Assembly (NCBI GenBank): GCA_018222585.1
Contig: JAAFAB010000008.1
Location: 1 to 64,000, forward strand
From: Paracoccaceae bacterium
GTDB taxonomy: Bacteria > Pseudomonadota > Alphaproteobacteria > Rhodobacterales > Rhodobacteraceae
DNA length: 64,000 bases
Reading direction: 5' to 3'
Below the pieces are notes generated by a model. The model saw nothing but the letters and a program-made list of their open reading frames with translations, was not told where the DNA came from and searched no databases. This document shows positions 43,134 through 44,990 of this stretch, piece after piece (within the stretch, counting starts at the first letter, position 1; every line of letters starts with the position of its first letter). A program made the translations under genes and the position numbers.

Positions 43134-44990
43134 CTAGTGGTCCATCGCGGCGGCGAAGAGCTCTTTCGTGTAGGCGGCCTGCGGGGCATCGAAGACCTGC
43201 TCTGCCGTGCCCTCTTCCACCACGTCGCCGTGACGCATGACAATCACCCGGTGGGACATGGCGCGCACCACCTTCAGGTCGTGGCTGATGAACAGGTAGG
43301 CCAGCCCGTACTTCTGCTGCAGTCGTCGCAGCAGGTCGACGATCTGCACCTGCACGGTCATGTCCAGCGCCGAGGTCGGCTCATCCAGCACCACCAGGCG
43401 GGGCCGCAGGATCATCGCGCGGGCGATGGCGATGCGCTGGCGCTGCCCGCCCGAGAACTCATGCGGGTAGCGGTCCATCATGGCCGGGTCGAGGCCCACC
43501 TCGGCCATCACCTCGGCCACCTGCTGACGCACCGGCAGCTTGCTTTCCGTGCGATGCACCGACAGCCCTTCCGCGATGATCTGCTCGGCCGTCATGCGGG
43601 GCGAGAGAGAGCCGAAGGGATCCTGGAAGACGATCTGCATGTCCTTGCGCAGGCTGCGCAGTTCCGCGGTCGAGAGCGCATGGATGTCCTGCCCCTCGAA
43701 GCGCACTTGCCCCTCCGAGCCGATCAGCCGCATCAGCGCCAGCGCCAGGGTCGTCTTGCCCGAGCCCGATTCGCCCACGATGCCAAGGGTTTCGCCGGCG
43801 CGCAGGGTGAGGTTCGCGTCGTTCACCGCCTGCACATGGCCGACGGTGCGCTTCATCAGCCCCTGCTGGATCGGGAACCAGATGCGCAACTTGTCGGCCG
43901 CAAGTACCACCGGGGCATCGGGGGCAGGTGACTCGGGTCCTCCCACCGTGGCCGCCGAAAGCAGCATCTTCGTATAGGCGTGTTGCGGGTCGGCAAAGAT
44001 CGCCTCGGTCGGGCCCTCTTCGACGATCAGCCCGTCCTTCATCACGCAGACCCGGTCGGCGATGCGGCGCACGATGCCAAGATCATGGGTGATGAACAGC
44101 AGGCCCATCCCCGTCTCGTCCTTCAGCTTCGCCAGCAGATCGAGGATCTGGGCCTGGATGGTCACATCCAGCGCCGTGGTGGGTTCATCCGCGATCAGCA
44201 GGCGCGGATTGTTGGCCAGCGCCATGGCGATCATCACCCGCTGGCGCTGCCCGCCGGACAGCTCGTGCGGATAGGCGGTCAGCCGGCTCTCGGCGTCGCG
44301 GATGCCGACCTGTTCCAGCAGCGCGATCGACCGTTCGCGGGTTTCGCTGGCGGTGATCCAGGTCGAGAAACGGCTGGAGAGCAGGGCCTTGCCCGCTGCC
44401 AGCAGTGCCGTCAGCCCGAGCGCCCAGAGCACGGCGCGGAACAGGCGGCGGACGAATTCGGTTCCGAAGGCGCCGAGGAAATCGAGGCTGGGGGTTTCGG
44501 GCGCCGTGGCCATGAAGGCGCCATAGGCGGCAAGGAAGGCGAAGAAGGCCAGCAAGCCGATCAGCACCGGCATCGGGTTCAGCCGCATCCAGCCTTCCAG
44601 CCAGCGTTTCACCCAGCTGCGTCCGGTCAGGCCCTGGTGCAGGGCCATGCTCTCGGCCAGCTGCTTCTCGATGGTGTGCAGCGGGTTGAGAGAGGTCATC
44701 GGCTCCTGGAAGATGAAGGAGATGTCGTTGCCGCGCAGGCGGCGCAGCTGCGCCGGGCTGGCGCCGACCATCTCCTGCCCCTCGAACCGGACCGAGCCCG
44801 CGACCTCGGCGTTGTCGCCCAGAAGCGAGACGGTCGAGAGGGCCGAGACCGATTTGCCCGAGCCGGATTCACCGACCAGCGCCACGGTCTCACCGGCCTC
44901 GACGTGGAAGGAGACGCCCTTGACGGCCTCGATCCGCTGGCCGTCCTGGGCGAAGGCGACGCGCAGGTCGCGCACGGAAAGCATGGTCAT
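43134..44990 (-). CDS. yejF: Oligopeptide ABC transporter ATPase, fused tandem NBDs, with membrane insertion
   Basis: A 618-residue protein with two ATPase domains, as in YejF. NBD1: Walker A GESGSGKS (40-47), Q-loop Gln95, signature LSGGQ (244-248), Walker B LLIADEP (264-270). NBD2 has [17 protein letters not shown] and [12 protein letters not shown]. Between the Q-loop and signature of NBD1 lies an extra segment of about 92 residues (124-216) with two hydrophobic stretches of about 20 residues; normal YejF proteins have roughly 20 residues there. The frame is unbroken and flanking motifs are intact. The start overlaps the yejE stop (ATGA). Confidence 0.93.
44343..44621 (-). other. Insertion with two predicted membrane helices in the first ATPase domain
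   Basis: Residues about 124-216 of the YejF-like ATPase. The first hydrophobic stretch is at 142-161 ([20 protein letters not shown]) and the second at 183-203 ([20 protein letters not shown]). They are joined by a loop with Pro, Glu and Asp. The segment sits in the helical subdomain that touches the permease in ABC transporters. Function unknown. Confidence 0.7.

Follow-up and report, generated by a model that had tools for sequence, protein, structure and literature searches.

A predicted membrane hairpin inserted into the first ATPase domain of YejF in one clade of Pseudooceanicola

The ATPase domains of ABC importers are generally regarded as soluble and as held to the permease via coupling helices. 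In ABC-F proteins the first ATPase domain carries an insertion, the Arm, in its helical subdomain, probably at the same site as the insertion described here. The transporters closest to the present one are YejABEF, whose fused two-domain ATPase YejF (NCBIfam model NF011713) serves the microcin C importer of E. coli and is encoded in the order binding protein-YejB-YejE-YejF, and YejBEF-YepA of Agrobacterium tumefaciens, with a fused ATPase and the same operon order. In Agrobacterium, YejBEF has been shown to take up peptidoglycan fragments (muropeptides) together with the binding protein YepA, which is reported to be widespread in Rhodobacterales (PMC9790009). For the related E. coli DppBCDF, polar contacts of DppB with DppD residues T100, S101, N103 and E114 and a rotation of the helical subdomain of about 20 degrees between states have been reported (PMC12136057).

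A yej operon was found on the minus strand of the window, i.e., the 64,000 nt analysed (positions 1 to 64,000 of contig JAAFAB010000008.1, Paracoccaceae bacterium assembly GCA_018222585.1). It consists of genes for a substrate-binding protein of the YejA/YepA kind (47275..49230), the permease YejB (46178..47266, 362 aa counted from MGAYILRR, the probable partner of the first nucleotide-binding domain, NBD1), the permease YejE (44987..46174, 395 aa) and YejF, a fused ABC ATPase with two nucleotide-binding domains (43137..44990, 618 aa without the stop). The set of ATPase motifs is complete in both domains of YejF: in NBD1 Walker A is at residue 40, the Q-loop glutamine at Q95, LSGGQ at 244 and DEPTTALD at 268, and in NBD2 (residues 360-618, 43137..43913) they are at 406, Q456, 512 (FSGGQ) and 536 (DEPTSALD). 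Judged by the stretches that match best, NBD1 resembles DppD and NBD2 resembles DppF.

The best NCBIfam model for the window protein is NF011713 (706.9 bits, E 1.5e-212), with a score below the curated cut-off of 834 bits. The P. spongiae YejF (708.1 bits) also falls below it, as do the two orthologues without the insertion that were tried (732.4 and 742.4 bits), thus the shortfall is not due to the insertion alone. The window protein is a YejF orthologue by operon and tree, and not an NF011713 equivalog. The adjacent YejB and YejE products score 527.4 bits with NF011712 (cut-off 445) and 442.0 bits with NF011596 (cut-off 439), so that this ATPase, unlike ABC-F proteins, has permease genes beside its own. 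Among related loci YejE is encoded beside yejF in 23 of 23 and YejB in 22 of 23, the contig ending in the remaining one (L111). Also neighboring yejF, at window positions 40897-43062, are genes for an fnrL-type regulator (NF045989, 464 bits) and hemN (TIGR00538, 378 bits). Elsewhere in the window, long open frames at 9092-12265 and at 52524-54914 on the minus strand (1057 and 796 codons) are candidate genes, and neither has an NCBIfam match at 1e-10.

The distance from Q-loop to signature motif is 149 residues in NBD1 of the window protein and 56 in NBD2, which has normal spacing and serves as an internal control, as the preliminary description of this DNA had proposed. YejF loci from other genomes were used to set these values in context; the counts leave out second copies in a few genomes. 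In a first set of 50 loci, the NBD1 spacing is 148-149 in eight and exactly 58 in 41 (12 from the genus Pseudooceanicola and 29 from other genera), and one frameshifted locus (L038) has no intact frame. The loci with a spacing of 58 show no hydrophobic stretch in this region (maximum 0.84). A search of the family matched 94 of 100 genomes; 30 of these loci, the window's own included, were retrieved automatically, and of the other 64, the 23 with an open frame of more than 600 residues were parsed. All from other genera, they gave a spacing of 58 in 22 (maximum 0.87), and one could not be parsed. The remaining 41 have frames of at most 600 residues, too little room for a YejF of some 525 residues and 91 more, with the exception of G098, which is cut by the contig end and is uninformative. 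The insert-free orthologues parsed at a spacing of 58 number 63, and it is on these that the contrast between a spacing of 58 and one of 148-149 here is measured. Seven peptide-transporter paralogues in the window genome have spacings of 55-58 in both domains.

The insertion comprises residues 124-214 (91 aa, 273 bases; 44349..44621, minus strand), with edges set against the insert-free orthologues and accurate to within a few residues, and it is absent from orthologues outside its clade. The earlier report of an in-frame, two-helix hydrophobic insertion in NBD1 is borne out; its placement at 44343-44621 was right at the high end and two codons too long at the low end. The possibility had been raised there that homologues might be equally long and lack hydrophobic segments. 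This is not so, as the relatives lack the whole piece. A cytoplasmic ATPase is expected to have no membrane segment, yet NBD1 here contains two hydrophobic segments that are absent from all 63 insert-free orthologues.

Two AlphaFold2 predictions, one with the window protein as lead sequence and one with that of Pseudooceanicola sp. HF7, each from eight related sequences, agree on the parts of the insertion. An amphipathic pre-helix is predicted at residues 126-135 (44586..44615, minus strand), with invariant K128, R129, L131, E132 and W134; conservation and the hydrophobic moment also point to it, the latter reaching 0.83 over residues 127-137, where the 99th percentile for the protein lies at 0.78, as expected of an interface helix. 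The first predicted membrane helix spans residues 139-162 (44505..44576, minus strand; 139-161 or 139-162 in the models). A long second helix follows at 171-213 (44352..44480, minus strand; 175-206 and 208-212 in the second model) and contains the hydrophobic segment 186-204. The hairpin is joined to the rest of the protein by linkers of about 15 residues leading into the first membrane helix and about 8 leaving the second. The models are of middling quality, with mean pLDDT of 74.9 and 76.2 and pTM of 0.59 and 0.64, and the five models per protein span mean pLDDT of 57.6-74.9 (window) and 51.8-76.2 (HF7). In ten-residue blocks the insertion has pLDDT of 57-83 in the first model and 54-78 in the second; values below 50 occur at the junction 120-123 and in the Walker A region (42-59 and 43-58, respectively).

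The position of the insertion on the ATPase can be compared with that of known structures. DppD residues 86-121 align without a gap to YejF 85-120, and the four residues in polar contact with DppB correspond to the identical T99, S100, N102 and E113 of YejF, which lie in residues 99-113 (44652..44696, minus strand) and are invariant in the eight aligned proteins. The insertion starts 11 residues past E113, at the end of a helix (107-123) present in both models. YejB should, by homology, be the membrane neighbor of the insertion, because the DppB-contacting residues of DppD align to NBD1 just ahead of it. DppD is not known to have a membrane segment. Nor does such a segment appear in the parts of the E. 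coli DppBCDF description used here, and its ATPase subunits, unlike the two halves of YejF, are unfused (PMC12136057). The best fold matches are the M. tuberculosis OppABCD/DppABCD ATPases (PDB 8j5q, 8j5r, 8j5s, 8wd9, 8wda, 8wdb, 8xfc; query-normalised TM-scores 0.67-0.77). These are also fused NBD1-NBD2 proteins, but the sequence match breaks at the insertion: the best stretch with DppD is 217-614, and the first part extends to 121 or 116.

The reading considered probable is that a single Pseudooceanicola ancestor gained 91 residues where the NBD1 helix docking on the permease coupling helix ends, and that the gained piece begins as an amphipathic helix at the membrane interface and continues as a membrane hairpin whose two ends are cytoplasmic, anchoring the ATPase beside YejB. 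With such a hairpin YejF would be an integral membrane protein. The hairpin would adjoin YejB, packing through a conserved face either on YejB or on its own first helix. Most likely it would tether the ATPase to the permease, so that the two would remain together during the whole transport cycle, and it may adjust the way in which movement of the helical subdomain reaches the membrane. Given a rotation of about 20 degrees as in DppBCDF, the hairpin would have to bend at its linkers or move along.

Conservation of the insertion was examined both at the codon level and along the helices. Fourteen hairpin residues are invariant over the eight proteins: P141, Y156 and F159 in the first helix, A163, P164, P167 and S168 just after it, and G192, L193, T194, L197, L204, W211 and I212 in the second helix. 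In the second helix conservation is periodic, with a peak at 99-100 degrees per residue and permutation p values of 0.0004 (residues 171-213) and 0.0024 (183-213); four stretches were tried and the p values ignore kinship. No significant stripe was found in the first helix or the pre-helix (p 0.20 and 0.096). The pattern suggests that a conserved face of the second helix packs on something, with YejB and the first helix of the hairpin fitting the data equally well as the partner.

In seven pairs, among which species recur, the dN/dS of the insertion (Nei-Gojobori) is 0.29, 0.39, 0.30, 0.19, 0.79, 0.25 and 0.46, i.e., below 0.5 in six (0.19-0.46), the exception being the HF7/G011 pair at 0.79. 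Elsewhere in the protein the ratios are 0.01-0.37 (first part of NBD1), 0.01-0.16 (second part of NBD1) and 0.02-0.19 (NBD2); single short segments reach higher but noisy values, e.g., 2.6 for the second helix in HF7/G011. Averaged over alignment columns, conservation is 0.50 for the insertion and 0.83-0.88 elsewhere in YejF. Judged by these substitution patterns, the insertion is under constraint, weaker than that on the ATPase core. Change between groups in YejB shows a slight nominal excess (1.33; YejE 1.21, YejF core 1.20). The favored reading is weakened by the faster evolution of the insertion, the HF7/G011 ratio and the slightness of the YejB excess, as well as by the missing stripe in the first helix and pre-helix, the middling models and the borderline score of the second segment on one scale (see below). 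The first two of these, together with the lack of a significant stripe in the first helix, would also be expected if the hairpin sat in lipid as a passive anchor that makes no specific contact with YejB and is retained only for being harmless and giving a small gain in membrane affinity; the stripe of the second helix could then be packing between the two hairpin helices. Invariance at fourteen positions combined with that stripe nevertheless exceeds what greasiness demands, and a passive anchor is considered unlikely.

The membrane character of the hairpin was assessed with hydrophobicity scales. The most hydrophobic 19-mers of YejF are 142-160 (Kyte-Doolittle 2.31) and 186-204 (1.86), and no other region of the protein reaches the cut-off of 1.3. 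The same scan applied to the presumed membrane helices of YejB (six segments) and YejE (five) gives 1.53-2.82, a range within which both insert segments fall. In six other insert proteins scanned at 1.3, both segments were found in five and only the first in the HF7 protein (L043). On the Hessa scale the second segment is borderline, with +0.1 to +2.2 where found, compared with -3.0 to +3.0 for the segments of YejB and YejE. Net charges in the eight proteins are +2 to +4 in the pre-helix, 0 to -4 in the loop and +1 to +4 after the second helix, a distribution that fits the positive-inside rule for a hairpin with N and C termini inside.

It should be considered whether the helices instead pack against the ATPase or rest on the surface of the membrane, not crossing it. 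The borderline value of the second segment would agree with this, as would the precedent of the ABC-F Arm, likewise an additional helical subdomain of an ABC ATPase, which is reported to be soluble and in EttA binds the ribosomal L1 stalk, ABC-F proteins having no transmembrane domains (PMC6723617). Segments as hydrophobic as those of YejB and YejE, with positive flanks and a negative or neutral loop, argue against it, and a soluble or monotopic hairpin is regarded as improbable. An N-in/C-in membrane hairpin, with predicted insertion into the bilayer, is the best reading. The preliminary description had allowed for a soluble amphipathic pair in structure prediction, and two long helices of membrane-like hydrophobicity appeared instead. 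Its suggestion of membrane anchoring gains from these two features and from the relatives that lack the piece, and becomes the best reading, the insertion into the membrane itself being a prediction.

The insertion alone was used to search genomes of the genus and beyond. It matches 9 of 22 Pseudooceanicola genomes at E <=0.001, and a search with YejF detected it in 21 of the 22, the exception (G020) being 66% complete. The carriers found in the genome-collection scan are two Pseudooceanicola marinus strains, P. antarcticus, P. spongiae, P. sediminis, P. endophyticus, Pseudooceanicola sp. HF7 and Oceanicola sp. S124. In the last of these (G003) the insertion is split over two frames because the reading frame of yejF is broken within it (L092, contig C273, about 14843-14861); in a draft of about 340 contigs this may be an error or a real pseudogene. 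In the eight intact copies and in P. sediminis the insertion is 90-91 residues long. Although that one broken frame among nine genus carriers could hint at a sequencing, assembly or frame artefact, or at a stretch that is excised ahead of protein synthesis, such an origin is refuted by the presence of the same insertion at the same length in independent genomes, including the complete chromosome record of P. spongiae, as the preliminary description had anticipated for assembly error, and with codon-level constraint and a GC content of 0.678, close to the 0.671 of the remaining gene, it is extremely improbable.

Among 394 genomes of the family (392 from other genera), only the window genome reached E 0.001; G006, a genus member in this sample, lacks the insertion, and eight sub-threshold matches were seen, with E 0.0017-0.0093 and scores no higher than 21.1 bits. 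Profiles were also searched against 385 genomes across the class and 398 across the phylum. These searches, whose samples overlap the family sample and which scored at most 12 and 11 candidates per genome, returned the window genome with one weak match and with two, respectively. These three matches (E 4.7e-4 to 9.9e-4) were rejected as distant copies, as their translations look like ordinary membrane transporters without ATPase motifs.

In a tree of 50 YejF cores, from which the insertion had been removed, the nine intact carriers (eight of the first locus set and P. sediminis) form one clade (100/99), with the insert-free G010 adjoining it (92/87). A tree of YejB and YejE (21 rows), which leaves out the second P. 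marinus strain, L112 for its short YejF and L111 for want of a YejB on its contig, likewise places eight carriers in one clade (100/98) with G010 next (91/92). Because the intact carriers form one clade, the trees point to one gain of the insertion in a single ancestor inside Pseudooceanicola, and the gain appears to follow descent, as far as this operon can tell.

A source for the insertion was also sought. No relative was found in a scan of viral contigs, no second copy in the window genome at E 0.001, no foreign base composition by GC content, and no NCBIfam domain within the insertion in any of the eight members. Pfam gave only weak matches (YqiJ_N in three of eight, best E 0.0051; PycTM in two; DUF2207_C and DUF7287 in one each), which were rejected. 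Nine weak PDB profile matches (best E 0.39) were judged to be chance likeness of membrane helices; five are light-harvesting alpha chains. As an observation apart, residues 129-173 (window about 44472-44606) resemble these LH1 alpha chains at E 0.43-0.90, which is not significant and perhaps reflects only common membrane-helix make-up.

The insertion is a real, clade-specific and maintained feature in a variant of a well-known transporter, carried by one group of marine bacteria. Among titles and abstract openings in the open literature, which lacks most subscription journals, none was found to describe a membrane hairpin within the ATPase domain of an ABC protein, in keeping with the view of the preliminary description that the feature had not been described. 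A part in peptide passage, also proposed there, found no support: YejB and YejE are encoded beside yejF, and no compensating change in their lengths was seen in carriers (YejB 361-362 residues, against 358-370 in others; YejE 381-395, against 368-444). A natural, conserved hairpin at the end of the helix that receives the coupling helix offers a way to ask whether the ATPase must move freely, and to gauge the effect of tethering on coupling, with G010, the nearest insert-free relative, as a ready control. An effect on cell-wall turnover would be measurable, because YejBEF-YepA imports peptidoglycan fragments in Agrobacterium and YepA is reported to be widespread in Rhodobacterales.

The window genome encodes two binding proteins of the YejA/YepA kind at E 1e-20, the operon's own and another on contig 16 (L116, 1309-3240; match at 78521-80263 of the contig). 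The second is 37% identical to the first, and the two are possibly a YejA/YepA pair.
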